DNA from: Blautia sp. BIOML-A1
GTDB lineage: Bacteria; Bacillota; Clostridia; Lachnospirales; Lachnospiraceae
Assembly (NCBI RefSeq): GCF_009883055.1
Contig: NZ_WWVR01000007.1
Span: forward strand, 42,481 to 106,480
DNA length: 64,000 bases
Direction of reading: 5' to 3'
This document shows, one piece after another, positions 47,974 to 56,654 of this stretch. The translations under genes and the position numbers were made by a program. Position 1 is the stretch's first letter. Each line of letters opens with the position of its first letter. The notes under the pieces were generated by a model. It made no database searches. It had not been told where the DNA came from and was given only the letters and a program-made list of their open reading frames with translations.

Positions 47974-50900
47974 TTACTTAACCTTTACAGTCACTCTTTT
48001 ATATACACCGTTGCTGGCAAGAATATATATGCTGCAGCTTCCCTTAGCCTTTGCCCGGATCACCCCGTTTTGGCTTACCGTTGCAACTTTGCTGTCGGTA
48101 GTGTAATAGCGGTAGGAACTTGGGTGGGAAAGCAGCTTCTTTTTACGGTTCTCACTTGTAAGCTGACACTTCAGCCTGAAGGTTTTGCCAGGTTTCAGGA
48201 TAACTGTGGTCCTGTTTACTTTAATCGAAAAAGCATTTGTTGTACGTGCCTTTTTCATGGCAACATGCACTTCATTGGATTTGGCAATGTAGATTTTTCT
48301 GCCTTTCACCATTTTATAAGCAGCAACAAAATACTTATACTCACGGTTCGACTTCAGATTCTTATGTGTCATCGAAAGCTTTCCATTTTTAACCGTTCCG
48401 GCCTTTTTATAATTTATACTTCCGTTACAGTAGCACCAGAAAACATCATAACCGGCTGCACCAGGATACTTTCTCCAGGAAACGACAATGCTGTTCTTCT
48501 GTGCCTTGCCCGTTGCAAAAAATATCGGAAGTTTCAGGCGATAAACGTCCTTTCCGCTCAGTTTGGACTGATCGGCCTGCTCGATCGTGAAGATACCTTT
48601 CCTGAAAGTAATCCTGTAATTTGGATTAGAACCGGAAGCCTGAGAAACTGTGATCGGATAGATTCCCACCTTTTCACCGGCTTTTCGTCTTACTGTAATT
48701 CCTGATAAAGTGTCTTTTCCCACCAGACCTTTTGCCGTATAAGTAAGGACAGGATCTGCTTTACCGACAATTTTATTCTTATTGTCAGCAGTTACCGTGA
48801 TATTTTTCGGAGCGACCGTTATGATCACTTCTCTGGAAACAGCGAGATAATTCTGGCTCTCATCCATGGAAACTGTGATCTTCGCTGTTCCTGCATTTCT
48901 GATCGTCACGGTTCCATCTTTGCTTACTGTGGCAACCTCTTTATTATCACTTGCAAACTGGATGCCGGATTCTGTATCTCCTGCCTTCGCTGTGATCTTA
49001 AATGCCGGATCTCCGTAAGTTACCTTGTAAGAAATCTTATCTACCACAAGACTGTGTTCGATTTTTCTGACCGTTATGGTGACTTCTTTCTGATCTGCTG
49101 TATAGTTTGCAGTCTCTGCAAGGGAAACGGTCAGGGTTGCGGTGCCGGCTCCAACGATCGTTACCACACCGTTTTTGTCCACTGTCACAACCTTGTCGTC
49201 GCTGCTTGCATAAGTTTTCACGCCATTACCTTTGTTGCTTACTTCCAGCTTAAAGGATTCTTCTCCATATTTTTTATCTTTGACTGCGGATACGCTGAGT
49301 GCCGGATACGCCTTTGCCACAATAAATGCTGCAGAGGCACCCTCTGTTTTCAGGCTGTAATTCTTATCTTTGATCGTTGCTGTCACGGTATAGATTCCTG
49401 CAAGAGATGGCACCTTCGTTCCATTTACCTCTGTTCCGTCGTTTGCCCTGCCTGTGTATGTCAGGGTAATCTCCGGGTTATCTTTTCCCACCAGTCCGTC
49501 CAGAGCTGCCACTGCCGGGACAATGATTTCTCCATAGATCCCGCCGTTCGGTGCGATCTTCGCACTGATCTCTTTCGGAACAACCGCCACTGTCACTTCT
49601 CTGGAAACTGCGAGGTAATTCTGGCTCTCATCCATGGAAACTGTGATCTTCGCTGTTCCTGTATTTCCGATGTTTACAGTTCCATCTTTGCTTACTGTGG
49701 CAACCTCTTTATTATCACTTACAAACTGGATACCGGATTCTTTATCTCCTGCCTTCGCTGTGATCTTAAATGCCGGATCTCCATAAGTTACCTTGTAAGA
49801 AATCTTATCTACCACAAGGCTGTGTTCGATCTTTCCGACAGCTACAGTGACTTCTTTCTGATCTGCTGTATAGTTTGCACTCTCTGCAAGGGAAACGGTC
49901 AGCGTTGCTGTGCCAGTTCCAATGATCGTTACCACACCGTTATTGTCCACCGTTACAACCTTGTCGTCACTGCTTACATAAGATTTCACGCCATCGCCTT
50001 TGTTGCTCACTTCCAGCTTAAAGGCTTCTTCTCCATATTTTTTGTCTTTGACTGCGGATACGCTCAACTGTGGATCTGCTCTCTTTATTGTAAATTCAGC
50101 AGAGCTGCCGTCTTCTTTCAGACTGTAATTGCCATCTTTGACGGAAGCAGTCACTGTGTAGGTTCCGGCTTTGGATGGCACTTTCCCGTCTGCTGCGGTA
50201 CCATCGTTTGCTTTGCCTGCATATGTCAGAATGATCTCCGGATCATCCTCTCCCACCAGTCCGTTCAGAACCGCGGTCGCAGGAGTGATCGTTCCTTCAT
50301 ATATCCCGCCGTTTGGTGTGATCTTAACTGTGATCTCTTTCGGGCTGATATCTGCTGTGGTACTTGTCTGCTGCCCGTTATCTGCCAGGATATAATCCCC
50401 TGCCGATCCGCCGCCCAGCACAGGCTTTGTGATCGTAACAGTTTTTCCATTGGCTGCATTGCTGTCTGCAAAAGTACCTTCTGCACTTACTGTAAGGCTG
50501 TCACCTTTCACTGCTCCTGCAAACACGGCTTTGCTGTAATCCAGTTCCGCATCCGCTGTTCCGTCATATACCTTGCCTTTTGCAGTGATTCCGGAGATCA
50601 CAACTTCCCGCTGCCGGATCGTATAAGCCTTCGTATCGGAAGCAGCGGTAAAATCACCATTTTCGGATACACTGACCCTGACTTCATAAGTTCCTGCGTG
50701 TATCGGGGCTTCTGTCTGCCAGGTTTCATTTACGTTGTATTCAACTTTGATATTGGCATTGCTGTTTGTTGTATATGCCAGATCTGCCGGCTGTCCGTCG
50801 TATTCCTTATCCAGCGTACCTGTGATTTTTACATTTGCTGTCTGACGGCTGACATTTACTGCGATCTGACTGTCGGCAGGTTTGTCACCGCCTTTGTATT

Positions 50901-52683
50901 CTGTCACGCCCTGCGGATAATATGCAACTGTCAGTTTATAAGTGCCTGCTTCCAGAGTATCCAGATACTCTCCGCTGAATGTGATCCTGTCTGCGGAAAC
51001 TGTATAATCCTTTCCCTCTGTCAGAGTGGTTTCTCCGTTTCTTACAGACGCTATGGTGTTTCCATTCAATTTCACTTTCGCGTCCACGGAAGCTTTGGTT
51101 GTCCTTGTGTAGTCGATGGAAGAATCCACAACTACAGAATCTTTAAATACAACTACCCCATCAGAATTGATGATCGTCTGGTTTCCTGCCTTGTCTGTAA
51201 CACGGGCATAGACCACATACCTGCCGCTTTCTGTCAGGGAAAGTTTCTCCTCTGCATTCCATGGAAGCCATGTGCCGTTTGCATCATAGGATTCCTCCGC
51301 ACTGACCGCCTGATATTCTACAGAAGCAATTCCACTGGCACTATCTGCACCTGTGATGTCAACAGAAACATTATCCCTGAACCAGTAACCATAAGTAATA
51401 TCCTTCAGGGAACTGTCAAATGTATTTTCCCCGATCCGGATACTGCCTGACGGCATTCCGGTGTCAATTTTGAATGTTACTGTTTTTTTATCGGTAACGG
51501 CACCTGTTGCAGTCTCTTTCAGATAATATCCTGCAGACTGTTCTCCCTGATCCGTGTAATCCCCAAGCGAATCCTTCCAGTCTGTTTTGTCCGTCGATAT
51601 CTGGTATCCACTGTCCGGTACAAGTTTCACAGGACTTATGTACCAGTCATTGTTACCTTTTGTTCCGGAAACCTGCGCGGCCACTGAAGTCTGCAGATAG
51701 CTGATGCTCCAGTTCTGGGAAACACCCGTGGCACCGGTAAGTGTATAGTTATCATTTCCAAGGTCTGTTACCGTTGCCGTATAGCTGTTGCCTGCTTTTG
51801 TCTGTGTATTGCCTTCATAGGCAATTGCAAAAGAATCGCCCTCCAGTGCATTCGCAACCGTCGCCGATACGCTCTGCTCACTTCCCGTATAAATCAGATC
51901 TGTTTTCGACCAGGTTAAGTCTGCCGGAAGTGGTGCGATCTTGAAGGAAGTTTCCGCTTCTGCCCCTGCATAGTTTCCATTCTCCGGCACAACCGCTTTC
52001 ACATAGTAAGTACCTGCATTCTTTGGTACTCCTCCATTTGTGGCTGCACCATCTGCTGCGGTCGTCATATCTGTACAGCTGCCATCTGTGTAGTACGTAC
52101 AGGTAAAACCGGAGGCATCATAAGAAGCTGTAATGTCACTTTCACCTGACTTAACTGTTATGCTTGGTGTGTTCGCCTTCTGTCCATAGATCCAGTCATC
52201 CATAGTCACTGTCGGATCAATTTCCATTTTTTTAATCTTAAAATCAGCACTTATGGTCTGGCCGCCAAGCGTGACTTTTACCGTATATTGTCCTAAATTT
52301 ACCGGTGCAGCTCCCTCACTCGCAGCACCGCTGTTGCTGCTGTTGGTCTTCGTGCCGTCTTTCAGATAATATACGATGCTCGCTTCATCACCTGTCTGAC
52401 AGGTAATGTCATTTGTCACGGTCGCTCCGGTATAAGTATTGCCGGAATAATATGCATCAGCTGCTGCCAGGGTTAAATTTAATTTACCTGGATTAAATTC
52501 ACAATCTGTCTTCGCCGTACATGTTGCAATGATTTTATCCGCACTTGTTGAATAACTCCATGAATGAACATGATCACTTGCATACAGATACTTTTCAGTT
52601 GTATCATAATTTACTGAATGAGGATTACGATCTTCATCTATAAAAGTAATCCTTGTGCGCATCTCCGGAGATGTTCCTGGCAT
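47974..52683 (-). CDS. Large Ig-like/MBG repeat surface protein, C-terminal part (second frame)
   Basis: 1569 residues from the first ATG, but that ATG has no ribosome site. The frame is open upstream to a slippery heptamer at 52761, so this is most likely the continuation of the 53831 gene in the -1 frame (fused length about 1,952). It holds MBG/YDG-like and Big_2-like domains. Two near-identical 256-residue blocks (DNA repeats at 48810-50345) are followed by an Fn3-like domain (VSWRKYPGAAGYDVFW) and a final Big_2-like domain. No LPxTG anchor is seen. Probably secreted and structural or adhesive. Confidence 0.8.
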   Translation of the reverse strand: MPGTSPEMRTRITFIDEDRNPHSVNYDTTEKYLYASDHVHSWSYSTSADKIIATCTAKTDCEFNPGKLNLTLAAADAYYSGNTYTGATVTNDITCQTGDEASIVYYLKDGTKTNSSNSGAASEGAAPVNLGQYTVKVTLGGQTISADFKIKKMEIDPTVTMDDWIYGQKANTPSITVKSGESDITASYDASGFTCTYYTDGSCTDMTTAADGAATNGGVPKNAGTYYVKAVVPENGNYAGAEAETSFKIAPLPADLTWSKTDLIYTGSEQSVSATVANALEGDSFAIAYEGNTQTKAGNSYTATVTDLGNDNYTLTGATGVSQNWSISYLQTSVAAQVSGTKGNNDWYISPVKLVPDSGYQISTDKTDWKDSLGDYTDQGEQSAGYYLKETATGAVTDKKTVTFKIDTGMPSGSIRIGENTFDSSLKDITYGYWFRDNVSVDITGADSASGIASVEYQAVSAEESYDANGTWLPWNAEEKLSLTESGRYVVYARVTDKAGNQTIINSDGVVVFKDSVVVDSSIDYTRTTKASVDAKVKLNGNTIASVRNGETTLTEGKDYTVSADRITFSGEYLDTLEAGTYKLTVAYYPQGVTEYKGGDKPADSQIAVNVSRQTANVKITGTLDKEYDGQPADLAYTTNSNANIKVEYNVNETWQTEAPIHAGTYEVRVSVSENGDFTAASDTKAYTIRQREVVISGITAKGKVYDGTADAELDYSKAVFAGAVKGDSLTVSAEGTFADSNAANGKTVTITKPVLGGGSAGDYILADNGQQTSTTADISPKEITVKITPNGGIYEGTITPATAVLNGLVGEDDPEIILTYAGKANDGTAADGKVPSKAGTYTVTASVKDGNYSLKEDGSSAEFTIKRADPQLSVSAVKDKKYGEEAFKLEVSNKGDGVKSYVSSDDKVVTVDNNGVVTIIGTGTATLTVSLAESANYTADQKEVTVAVGKIEHSLVVDKISYKVTYGDPAFKITAKAGDKESGIQFVSDNKEVATVSKDGTVNIGNTGTAKITVSMDESQNYLAVSREVTVAVVPKEISAKIAPNGGIYGEIIVPAVAALDGLVGKDNPEITLTYTGRANDGTEVNGTKVPSLAGIYTVTATIKDKNYSLKTEGASAAFIVAKAYPALSVSAVKDKKYGEESFKLEVSNKGNGVKTYASSDDKVVTVDKNGVVTIVGAGTATLTVSLAETANYTADQKEVTITVRKIEHSLVVDKISYKVTYGDPAFKITAKAGDTESGIQFASDNKEVATVSKDGTVTIRNAGTAKITVSMDESQNYLAVSREVIITVAPKNITVTADNKNKIVGKADPVLTYTAKGLVGKDTLSGITVRRKAGEKVGIYPITVSQASGSNPNYRITFRKGIFTIEQADQSKLSGKDVYRLKLPIFFATGKAQKNSIVVSWRKYPGAAGYDVFWCYCNGSINYKKAGTVKNGKLSMTHKNLKSNREYKYFVAAYKMVKGRKIYIAKSNEVHVAMKKARTTNAFSIKVNRTTVILKPGKTFRLKCQLTSENRKKKLLSHPSSYRYYTTDSKVATVSQNGVIRAKAKGSCSIYILASNGVYKRVTVKVK
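48810..49577 (-). repeat. 768-base intragenic tandem repeat, unit 2
   Basis: Encodes the block from PKEISAKIAPNGG to SREVIITVAP. It is highly similar to unit 1 at exactly 768 bases (256 codons) distance; for example, the sequence GAAATCTTATCTACCACAAG occurs at 49031 and 49799. Confidence 0.85.
49578..50345 (-). repeat. 768-base intragenic tandem repeat, unit 1
   Basis: Encodes the block from PKEITVKITPNGG to SREVTVAVV. The Big_2-like half (KISYKVTYGDPAFKITAKAG) is nearly identical to unit 2; the MBG-like half is more diverged. Confidence 0.85.
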
Positions 52684-52688
52684 TGTAA

Positions 52689-53831
52689 TTATATATGGGT
52701 ATCCAAACCAATAAGTTTGATGAACACTTGCAGTTCCTTTGAAGTCATCTTGTATGATAAGTTTTTTTCGCTGCTTGGCACCAAAGCAATATCGCTATCA
52801 TTATTTTCAAAGGTTACATTTCCAATCGTAAGTGGTCCATTTTGCTCTATGCCATATATAATTCCTGCTCCAGTTTTAAAATTTGAGATTTTTCCGCCAA
52901 CAATTTTTGCTACGTCCGGATCAAATATGCCAACTCCTGTACCTTCTGATGATGTAATGGTTCCACCATACATATTGACGGTTCCTCCCTCAACCACCGC
53001 AGCCCTGGCACCTCCATTATCCAGAGTCGTTCCATCCTGAATATTTAGTGTCCCGTCAAAATTGTCTACTATTCTAACCCTTTCCTTCTTCGCTGGCACA
53101 ACATCCGTTACTTTAATTTTAACATTTTTAAGATTAATAATTCCATCATTACAAATTATGTTTAAACTACCGGACTCTCCTTTGGACCGTCCTTCATAAA
53201 TGCCACCTTCAAAAGTAACGGTTGCATTTTTATTATCTAAAAGAGCGATCCTTTTCATAGTCACCTTATAATTTTGATTATTCATAATTTTTAATTCTTT
53301 GCAGGCATTTTTCACAGTAATAAAAGGGTCCCTCTCTACAATAATTTCCCCCGCAATCTCCAGAGTAACTTCCTCTGCAGTATTAATACTGATTGAATTC
53401 GTATACGTTCCTCCCTGTACCGTATACATTCCTCCAGAAGTGATCGTTACATCTTCCCCCGGTGAAATCGTATTCGCAGCCGCTGTTCCCACTGCCATCT
53501 CACTGCCGCTGCTAAAAAGAGCAACTCCATCCGTAAAGTCTTCTTCCACTTCCACGGCATCCTCAGTATCATCTTCGTCCTGGGATTCTGAAAGATCCTG
53601 GATCTCCACTTCTCCACTTTCCTCAATATCCTCTGTCTCAGGTTCTTCTGCAGGTTCTTCTGCAGCTTCAAAGATCACATCCTCATTGTCTTCGCCGTCT
53701 TCGAATTCCTGCATTTCCACATCAGCCGCCCAGATGAGGGATTCCGGTACCACAGATGTGATCAGCACTGTTCCGGTCAGGATCGCTGAAAGCAGTTTCC
53801 GGCTCTTTTTCACTAATTCATTTTTCTTCAT
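52689..53831 (-). CDS. Large repeat surface protein, N-terminal part (first frame)
   Basis: 380 residues: a signal peptide (residues 1 to about 36), a 75-residue acidic Glu/Asp-rich linker, then a beta-helix-like region (residues about 125-350) of short TxGG, NGG and GGTxxMYGG repeats. After an A7 tract at codons 355-357 the frame gives 23 atypical residues and stops. In the -1 frame the sequence continues as LIIQDDFKGTASVHQTYW into the 1569-residue frame. Promoter and AAGGAGG are intact, so expression is expected. Confidence 0.85.
   Translation of the reverse strand: MKKNELVKKSRKLLSAILTGTVLITSVVPESLIWAADVEMQEFEDGEDNEDVIFEAAEEPAEEPETEDIEESGEVEIQDLSESQDEDDTEDAVEVEEDFTDGVALFSSGSEMAVGTAAANTISPGEDVTITSGGMYTVQGGTYTNSISINTAEEVTLEIAGEIIVERDPFITVKNACKELKIMNNQNYKVTMKRIALLDNKNATVTFEGGIYEGRSKGESGSLNIICNDGIINLKNVKIKVTDVVPAKKERVRIVDNFDGTLNIQDGTTLDNGGARAAVVEGGTVNMYGGTITSSEGTGVGIFDPDVAKIVGGKISNFKTGAGIIYGIEQNGPLTIGNVTFENNDSDIALVPSSEKNLSYKMTSKELQVFIKLIGLDTHI
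52761..52767 (-). other. A AAA AAC slippery heptamer joining the two frames
   Basis: Codons GAA-AAA-AAC of the first frame present A AAA AAC exactly in the X XXY YYZ phase. A -1 slip leads directly into the open downstream frame. The zero-frame stop is 70 bases later. No Shine-Dalgarno-like enhancer is visible upstream, and only a weak GATGA/TCATC hairpin downstream. Confidence 0.6.
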
Positions 53832-53868
53832 TTTGTTCCTCCTTCCACATTTTATATTTTATGAAAAT

Positions 53869-53897
53869 ATTATACTTTACAGAACAAAATTAGGCAA
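53869..53897 (-). promoter_or_regulatory. Promoter of the large repeat protein
   Basis: TTGCCT (53897-53892) and TATAAT (53874-53869), spacing 17 on the minus strand, with AAGGAGG before the ATG at 53831. Confidence 0.75.
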
Positions 53898-53983: not shown

Positions 53984-54994
53984 TTATTTATTTACAAAAG
54001 GTTTCAGCTCTTCGCGCTTTTCCACACCCAGTGTCTGAAAAATGCGGGAGAGATAATGTTTGATCGTATTGACTGACATGGACAGATGGTCTGCGATCTC
54101 CCGGTTGCTCCAGCCTTTGCTTGCAAGCATGGCTATGGAAAATTCCATAGGTGTCAGCTTATCTGTAACAGAGCTCTGAAGCTGTGGATTATGAATATCC
54201 ATCCAGCCGCGGCTGAAAGCAATGACTGCCTGTGAAAGCCGTTTGTAATTTTCCGGTTCTGTTGGTTTGATACAGGCTTCGATCTGGCCAAGCATCAGTC
54301 CGTGGTGCTCGATGAACGGTTCCAGAAATCCATCCGGTTTCGCCATGTTCCATGCTTTCATCAGGATTTCACTGGCCTCCTCGTGTTTCTTCTGGTTATT
54401 CAGGCACATGATGATCACGCAGTAGAGATATTCCATAGCAATGGGATAACAGCCATCAAGCATCAGAAAAACTGACTGACATAATCCCAGTGCCCGCTCA
54501 TATTCTTCATTCAGATAAGCATTGTGTGCGAGGATATAGATTGCATAAGCACGAATACCCGCCGGCAGGTACGGCAGAAAATCCTTGAGAGGTGGAAGTC
54601 CGTCTGCCGGAAGATGCATCAGAACCGTTGCCAGATAGCCGGCAAAAACACAGGAAGCCATAACTTCTTCTGATGCAGAGTTTTCTTCTGCAAGACGAAG
54701 GCATTCCTGGATGTTTCGAAATCCCATTCTGGAAGCAGATGGATTTCCCAGCGTAAGATTGGAAAAAGAATACAAAAGTCCTGCGGACAGGCGCAGGCAG
54801 AGATCTTTGTCCTGCAGATAAAGCTCCGTAATGTTTCTGCATTCCTGCGCGCGTCCTGAAAAATAATATAACTCCGCCTGTGCGATCTGCCGTTGATCCG
54901 GATCCTGAAAAGCATCCACAGTAGCCTGTGCCTGTCCGGGAGCAAAGGAACTGTTTATCAAAGGCATAAGATGAGCGGAAAAAGAATCACACAT
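53984..54994 (-). CDS. LuxR-type HTH regulator with TPR-like sensor region
   Basis: 336 residues. The C-terminal 65 residues are a LuxR/GerE helix-turn-helix (LTPMEFSIAMLASKGWSNRE then IADHLSMSVNTIKHYLSRIF). The N-terminal 270 residues are helical and TPR/MalT-like, without receiver or P-loop. The ATG at 54994 follows GGGGGGAG and overlaps the upstream gene by 8 bases, so it is the last gene of the dgt-dnaG-rpoD transcript. It ends 150 bases before the large repeat protein gene and could regulate it, which is inference only. Confidence 0.85.
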   Translation of the reverse strand: MCDSFSAHLMPLINSSFAPGQAQATVDAFQDPDQRQIAQAELYYFSGRAQECRNITELYLQDKDLCLRLSAGLLYSFSNLTLGNPSASRMGFRNIQECLRLAEENSASEEVMASCVFAGYLATVLMHLPADGLPPLKDFLPYLPAGIRAYAIYILAHNAYLNEEYERALGLCQSVFLMLDGCYPIAMEYLYCVIIMCLNNQKKHEEASEILMKAWNMAKPDGFLEPFIEHHGLMLGQIEACIKPTEPENYKRLSQAVIAFSRGWMDIHNPQLQSSVTDKLTPMEFSIAMLASKGWSNREIADHLSMSVNTIKHYLSRIFQTLGVEKREELKPFVNK

Positions 54995-56654
54995 CAAAAC
55001 AGCTCCCCCCTACAAACTCCCGAAGAAGAGAATTCCGCGGGATATCGTCGCTCGGTACTGCGACAAAATAATCCAGGAATTTGAGAAGGCGTTTCGCTTC
55101 CAGATACTCCGGCTCGTCCTTGCCGATCCCGAACAGAAGCGGCTCTGCATAAAGCTTCAGGCAGGCGAGTTCATAGACAAGTGCGGAGTTAAACATCACA
55201 TCTGCCTCTTCCTGATACGGGAAGATGTTTGCTTCCTCTCCTCTTCTTACCGACGGCCATCTGGCGATCGTTTCCTTTGCACTCGTTCCACGCGTTCTCG
55301 CATCACGCACGATCCTTCGGATCAGTCTGCCATCCGTGGTCGGAATACGGTTGTGTCTGTCGACATTCAGCTGTGTCAGTGCGCTGATATAGATCTTGAA
55401 TTTGCTTTCTTTCGGGAGGGAATGGCTCAGTTTGTCGTTAAGCCCGTGGATTCCCTCGATAACGAGGACATCGTCTTTCCCAAGCTTAAGGAAATCTCCC
55501 CGGTATTCCCTGTGGCCTGTCACAAAGTTAAATACCGGAAGTTCAATGCGTTCTCCACGGAGAAGTGCCAGCATATCTTCGTTGAATTTCTCCACGTCCA
55601 GGGCTTCCAGGCATTCATAATTCCTCTCACCGTATTCATCCAGAGGTGTATCTTCTCTGTTCTTGAAATAGTTGTCTACAGCGATCGGATGCGGCTTCAT
55701 GCCATGTGCTGTGAGCTGGATCGACAGACGATGCGAAAAGCTGGTCTTTCCTGATGAAGACGGACCTGCGATCATGATGAATTTCCTGCTTCCATCTGCT
55801 ACGATCTGCTGTGCGATCCTGGAAATCCTGGCCTCCTGAAGTGCTTCCTGGACCAGAAGGATGTTCCGCACCCCTTCTCTGGTGATCCGGTCATTCAGAT
55901 CACCAACGTAGGAGATATCCATCTTTTCTGCCCATTCCTGGGATTCCTTCTGTACCCTGAATATTTTTTCCTCCGGGGCAAACGGCGGAATCGTAAATGG
56001 ATCACTGCGCTCTGGCAGTTCCAACACAAATCCCTCATCATAAAGCTTCAGGTCAAAATACTTCACATATCCTGTATGATCTGCCATATATCCATAGAAA
56101 TAATCTTCATAATTCTCGATGTTGTAGATATTTACCCTGGAAACACGGCGGTAACGGAAGAGTTTTTCCTTATCATACATATGATGCTGATGAAACAATG
56201 CAATCGCGTCAGCTGTACTGACAGATTTCTTGCCGATCGGCAGGCATGCATCCGCGATTCTGTGCATCTCTTCTCTTATCTGATCCAGAAATCCCTGATT
56301 CAGACCCGGGAATCCGTTTATTGTAAAATAATATCCTGATCCGACAGAATAATGGATTTCCACCTTCTCCACAGTTTCCTTACCTGCCACATCATAAATC
56401 GCCTTAAGGAGCACCAGGCAGGCACTTCTTTTGTAGGTGGAAAATCCTATATGATCTCTGATCGTCACAAATCTCACAGTACAGTCACGCTTTACCTTCT
56501 TGTGAAGCTCCCGGAGCCTTCCGTCTGCTGTAACCAGTATGATCGGAAACTCTGTATCTTTCTGATATTCATCGACAATATCCCTGTAGGAAGTCCCACA
56601 GGGATATTCTTTTATATCACCATTGACAGTTACTTTTGCCATTTTTTGTTCCAT
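54987..56654 (-). CDS. Nucleoside (uridine-like) kinase with TGS/ThrRS-type N-terminus
   Basis: 555 residues. The N-terminus is a TGS domain and a threonyl-tRNA-synthetase second-additional-domain-like region. The C-terminal 270 residues are a phosphoribulokinase/uridine-kinase P-loop domain (GPSSSGKTSFSHRLS, DNYFKNREDTPLDE, VIEGIHGLND). It is commonly annotated as nucleoside kinase in Clostridia; the substrate is inferred. Confidence 0.85.
   Translation of the reverse strand: MEQKMAKVTVNGDIKEYPCGTSYRDIVDEYQKDTEFPIILVTADGRLRELHKKVKRDCTVRFVTIRDHIGFSTYKRSACLVLLKAIYDVAGKETVEKVEIHYSVGSGYYFTINGFPGLNQGFLDQIREEMHRIADACLPIGKKSVSTADAIALFHQHHMYDKEKLFRYRRVSRVNIYNIENYEDYFYGYMADHTGYVKYFDLKLYDEGFVLELPERSDPFTIPPFAPEEKIFRVQKESQEWAEKMDISYVGDLNDRITREGVRNILLVQEALQEARISRIAQQIVADGSRKFIMIAGPSSSGKTSFSHRLSIQLTAHGMKPHPIAVDNYFKNREDTPLDEYGERNYECLEALDVEKFNEDMLALLRGERIELPVFNFVTGHREYRGDFLKLGKDDVLVIEGIHGLNDKLSHSLPKESKFKIYISALTQLNVDRHNRIPTTDGRLIRRIVRDARTRGTSAKETIARWPSVRRGEEANIFPYQEEADVMFNSALVYELACLKLYAEPLLFGIGKDEPEYLEAKRLLKFLDYFVAVPSDDIPRNSLLREFVGGSCFDV

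Follow-up and report, generated by a model that had tools for sequence, protein, structure and literature searches.

A poly(A) tract that probably switches a gene for a very long surface-type protein in Blautia, seen in its OFF state

Homopolymeric contingency loci undergo phase variation by slipped-strand mispairing, and slippage switches of this kind are known mainly from pathogens. Here we describe a run of seven adenines (A7) in a 64,000-nucleotide (64-kb) stretch of DNA from Blautia sp. BIOML-A1 (contig NZ_WWVR01000007.1, positions 42,481 to 106,480; the whole stretch is referred to as the window), where it splits a gene on the minus strand for a long secreted surface-type protein into two open reading frames (ORFs). 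The tract is, in our judgment, likely to be a hypermutable and probably phase-variable poly(A) switch caught in the OFF position. Like the contingency loci, it is a homopolymer in a surface-protein gene that would be turned on and off by frame. Unlike them, the run is short (seven bases, with the other state deduced), lies inside a folded domain and belongs to a gut commensal.

The closest precedent is the inlA gene of Listeria monocytogenes, a surface-protein gene with a poly(A) run at the 5' end of its coding sequence, where the long-run and short-run alleles within one clade differ in the run only (PMC2831843). The same account gives an interrupted allele, A2GA4, in other lineages; it has the frameshift arising at least twice and puts the frequency of tract variation at ~1,000-fold above the average point mutation (PMC2831843). 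The Blautia locus is similar in having a coding poly(A) run in a surface protein, with the frame flipped by a change of one unit. The inlA run, however, is located at the 5' end and yields an 8-residue product, whereas the Blautia run lies ~356 codons into the gene and leaves a 380-residue secreted-type piece. The interruption also differs, being an A2GA4 allele in inlA and deduced here from a replacement of Lys by Gln. A search of one open-access library, judged by titles and abstract openings, found no paper on this gene.

The N-terminal piece, ORF1 (53831..52689, minus strand), encodes 380 residues, and ORF2 (ATG at 52683, ending at 47974, minus strand) encodes 1569 residues in the -1 frame relative to ORF1. 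An earlier note, made from the letters of the window alone, had placed the two frames -1 apart with the switch at a GAA-AAA-AAC heptamer, and the coordinates bear this out. The A7 tract (52768-52762, minus strand), the proposed slippage switch in its short state, is flanked by G at 52769 and C at 52761 and is read in the zero frame as GAA (52769-52767), AAA (52766-52764) and AAC (52763-52761), with an in-phase A AAA AAC heptamer at 52767-52761. A stop at 52797-52795 sets the upstream limit of the -1 frame, and both frames are open over the 106 nt from 52794 to 52689 that contain the tract. Past the slip codons, the zero frame of ORF1 continues as NLSYKMTSKELQVFIKLIGLDTHI, a tail that the note had recognized but counted as 23 residues; there are 24 when the Asn is included. 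The split of the surface gene is real, and the coding sequence holds a homopolymer whose length sets the frame. By itself the A7 run is ordinary for the window, which contains 31 exact 7-nt A/T runs (8 A7 and 23 T7); it is the relatives that raise the tract above chance.

ORF1 is preceded by a strong ribosome-binding site, GGAGG, at 53838..53842 on the minus strand (context GGAAGGAGG). A start of its own for the second frame was rejected, because the letters ahead of the ATG at 52683, CATATATAATTACA, contain no ribosome site, as the note had also stated, and the next ATG is directly abutted by a GGAG.

Querying with the open -1 stretch returned 1012 proteins (individual relatives are given below by handles of the form P0117), and the best 120 of these were examined. 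A single frame runs straight through the site in 117 of the 120, with the read-through motif SEKKLIIQDDF in 36 (Lys-Lys, or KK, versions) and SEKQLIIQDDF in 81 (Lys-Gln, or KQ, versions). The frames of the homologues join at this site and no joining elsewhere, which the note had named as a refuting result, was found. The relative P0130 is whole across the site too and departs from the family sequence later, near residue 541. The other three of the 120 begin at a Met past the site: P0117, which is the window's own, P0119, and P0121, labelled Blautia obeum. Since P0117 (1562 residues) and P0121 (1818 residues) differ in length and are exactly alike over their first 861 residues, more than one genome with this version must carry the short state. 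The entry for P0121 also illustrates an annotation pitfall, as the second half of the gene is listed there as a protein of its own (1818 aa, "Ig-like domain-containing protein").

The 380-residue piece, used as query, matched 43 proteins whose lengths lie between 0.55 and 1.75 times its own, 10 of which carry an out-of-frame tail (of the SEKNLSYKMTSK... kind) directly after SEK. Together with the window's protein, the cut proteins show four tail types. For these we asked whether one DNA, read one base out of step, can encode both a cut tail and a whole version. Of 18 distinct whole versions, each of the four tails is codon-compatible (24/24) with a single one, and the best non-matching pair holds for 19 codons, then fails. 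The whole partners of the four types are P0130; P0013, P0029 and ten others; P0008, P0034 and five others; and P0116 with P0164. Upstream of the site, the cut P0124 and the whole P0013 show no difference in 356 residues. Only 2 of 352 positions separate cut P0125 from whole P0029, whereas the nearest cut relative of P0125 with a full N-terminus is 10/356 away, and cut P0123 differs from whole P0003 at 4 of 352, with the nearest cut relative at 10. The nearest-neighbour list was made up only of KK whole rows beginning MKK, and P0130 and P0036 therefore lie outside it. Judged on the proteins, closely related versions do differ in frame at the tract.

The KQ versions provide a natural control, as Lys-Gln codons in place of Lys-Lys interrupt the A run. 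No KQ protein out of 82 is frameshift-cut at the site, as opposed to 11 of 52 KK proteins (Fisher p 1.5e-5), and the figures for distinct tree N-termini only are 0/24 and 11/42 (p 0.005); because rows are clusters and not independent strains, these values overstate the evidence and are indicative only. When a KQ N-terminus was itself used as query, no cut at the site was found among 50 matches. Frame switching at the site thus appears to be lost where the run is interrupted. P0137 was counted as a whole KQ protein, since it ends in frame at SEKQLII, three residues past KQ; its end reflects a nonsense codon or the end of a contig and not a frameshift.

The distribution of the cut state was followed on a quick tree of 66 N-termini, built from the sequence ending before the site. 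KQ rows not beginning MKK were omitted from it, as were exact duplicates and any row that lacked the SEK motif or had <250 residues ahead of the site. The 11 cut rows, including the window, require 9 changes on this tree, although this is no firm count because many branches are weak (28/61 open); shuffled labels gave a mean of 10.4, with 62 of 500 shuffles as low. Well-supported branches on their own force at least three changes. As far as such a tree can tell, there were several independent frame switches, and the cut state appears scattered almost at random. The tree and the matched cut and whole pairs led us to reject a single inherited pseudogene.

ORF1 consists of a signal-peptide-like start (judged by eye), an acidic linker, a truncated beta-repeat domain and the out-of-frame tail. 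In a predicted model of the relative P0130, the N-terminal domain (residues about 110-421) has the fold of a right-handed beta-helix, and on this model the N-terminal domain of ORF1 would be such a helix truncated at the site. The short product would retain the portion from codon 110 to 356 (53504..52762, minus strand, coordinates via residue count). A Foldseek search of the N-terminal model against the PDB found nothing at E 0.001 or better (best E 0.23). VIA-align applied to the Foldseek candidates gave clear beta-helix matches, with sequence identities of 5-16% among the 50 matches listed. The N-terminus has no family match in Pfam or NCBIfam searches, and sharing this fold says nothing on function. 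ORF2 contains CBM_X2, YDG, MBG_2/MBG_3, Big_2 and further Ig-like domains. The number of C-terminal Ig-like units varies within the short-state version (P0117, 1562 residues; P0119, at least 1699; P0121, 1818), so changes in repeat number do not depend on the tract.

We propose that a single gene encodes a secreted surface-type protein of great length (here about 1,950 residues), in which a signal peptide is joined to an N-terminal right-handed beta-helix and to a stalk made up of Ig-like domains, with the poly(A) run falling within the last part of the helix. Replication slippage would alter the run by one unit and flip the gene between the whole state and a stop at 380 residues. The whole state is that of most relatives among the best 120 of 1012, and the window, from Blautia obeum or a close relative going by the single label of P0121, is in the short state. 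The long surface protein would then be OFF, as translation stops short of the helix end and the entire Ig stalk, and the downstream frame lacks a start that could serve it. Slippage in replication would account for the precise position of the cuts, the shift by one base, their recurrence across backgrounds and their absence where the run is broken. We infer that the change is reversible, that tract length is the sole change and that the switch serves surface variation; a function as adhesin and an adaptive value are presumed in the same way. If this is true, the matched on and off versions, with the interrupted ones as controls, make homopolymer-driven surface variation in gut Lachnospiraceae testable in stool metagenomes.

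There is also some small chance that the short state leaks. The A7 tract is a slippery heptamer, and ribosomal or RNA-polymerase slippage on it might yield a little of the long protein. The tract would then act as a heritable high/low switch, with the 380-residue secreted piece possibly a product in its own right.

Several observations weigh against a dedicated slippage switch, beyond the weak branches and non-independent rows already mentioned. No reversion was seen. No DNA of a relative was found in genome, viral, plasmid and phage collections, so tract lengths outside the window are deduced from proteins, and the run in relatives would be shorter if an inner Lys or Glu codon contained a G. 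The window N-terminus is 11/356 from its nearest whole rows in the nearest-neighbour list (P0025-P0028) and 1/352 from the cut P0122, and P0126, P0127 and P0128 show 0-5 differences from each other and 4-7 from whole rows. The cut P0153 differs from the whole P0116 at 5 positions, all immediately before the site, so its cut may stem from recombination or chimeric assembly. Further frame breaks occur in the family, in P0129, P0131, P0135 and perhaps P0138; the protein is therefore lost in other ways as well, and repeated losses with no dedicated switch behind them would leave a partly similar picture.

P0129 (210 kb contig) and P0131 (95 kb contig) share the same break, after NGNYAG, a place marked by a G4 run in the window. 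The version represented by P0135 is more distant (77% identity) and is cut at the A-tract site too, with GKKLPYK, and its cut appears to have arisen by a change slightly different from the A-run cuts. ORF2 has further A7 runs at 52233-52227 and 51489-51483 (minus strand), at which the frame is undisturbed in the window; P0138 departs from the frame at the 52233-52227 run, though its contig is 1,686 bp long and an end effect may be responsible.

A recurrent one-way loss, in which the tract mutates unusually often, the bacteria can often do without the protein, and cut versions arise and die out without adaptive switching, is unlikely but deserves the most weight among the rival explanations. 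The cut rows lie mostly on short end branches of the tree, P0129 and P0131 end together at a different place, and starts at MAVGTAAAN are found in 33 of 82 KQ rows, all of which speaks for such loss. Likewise, P0117, P0119 and P0121 (the window's version, among the best 120 of 1012) are all in the short state, and P0138 leaves the frame at another A7, if this is not due to its contig end. On the other hand, one site was struck in several backgrounds while the same versions persist whole. At the A7 run at 52233-52227 one protein (P0138) leaves the frame, versus ten at the switch site; of the two further A7 runs of the gene, only this one, not 51489-51483, fell within the length range searched.

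Programmed -1 ribosomal frameshifting at A AAA AAC, giving products of 380 and roughly 1,950 residues, is very improbable, even though the canonical heptamer is in phase and both frames are open. The two-frame layout is not conserved, as 117 of the best 120 homologues are whole in one frame, and 81 of those 117 encode Lys-Gln, which breaks the run. The note had seen no clear stimulatory elements; a nested fold of the 81 nt downstream is no better than that of shuffles (z 0.28), and no clear Shine-Dalgarno-like element is present upstream, judged by eye. Conserved programmed frameshifting was set aside on the homologues, the downstream folding and the interrupted versions.

A sequencing or assembly error in the window is the least credible explanation, since, although homopolymers are error-prone in some technologies, the same split recurs on further contigs with the window's version (P0119; P0121, from NCBI and UniRef sources with a 98,976-bp contig; P0122, 99% identity) and in another background (P0128, with 7 contigs of up to 140 kb from two sources). 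Tract slippage, programmed frameshifting and an indel of biological or assembly origin had all been left open by the note; the first is retained, given the matched cut and whole versions of four tail types, the second is not, and pure assembly error is unlikely.

Upstream of ORF1 there is a promoter-like TTGCCT-17-TATAAT at 53869..53897 (minus strand), identified by consensus match only. The upstream neighbour (53984-54997, minus strand) encodes a protein with a LuxR-type (GerE) DNA-binding domain and ends just before ORF1, from which it is separated by a terminator-like hairpin at 53969-53944. Within ORF1, a 12-bp tandem repeat at 53639..53669 (minus strand) encodes in-frame AEEP units. Relatives of ORF1 of 372, 376 and 380 aa exist, and the repeat is probably a candidate source of such in-frame length differences.

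The KQ proteins show a further feature nearer the N-terminus. The 33 of 82 with an internal Met start at MAVGTAAAN include P0033 and P0044-P0046, and such starts suggest that the part with the signal peptide lies upstream in another frame. The version VENSEKQLIIQDDFQG occurs both with its N-terminus (P0081, P0085, P0089) and without it, and the MAVGTAAAN region is possibly a second on/off point.
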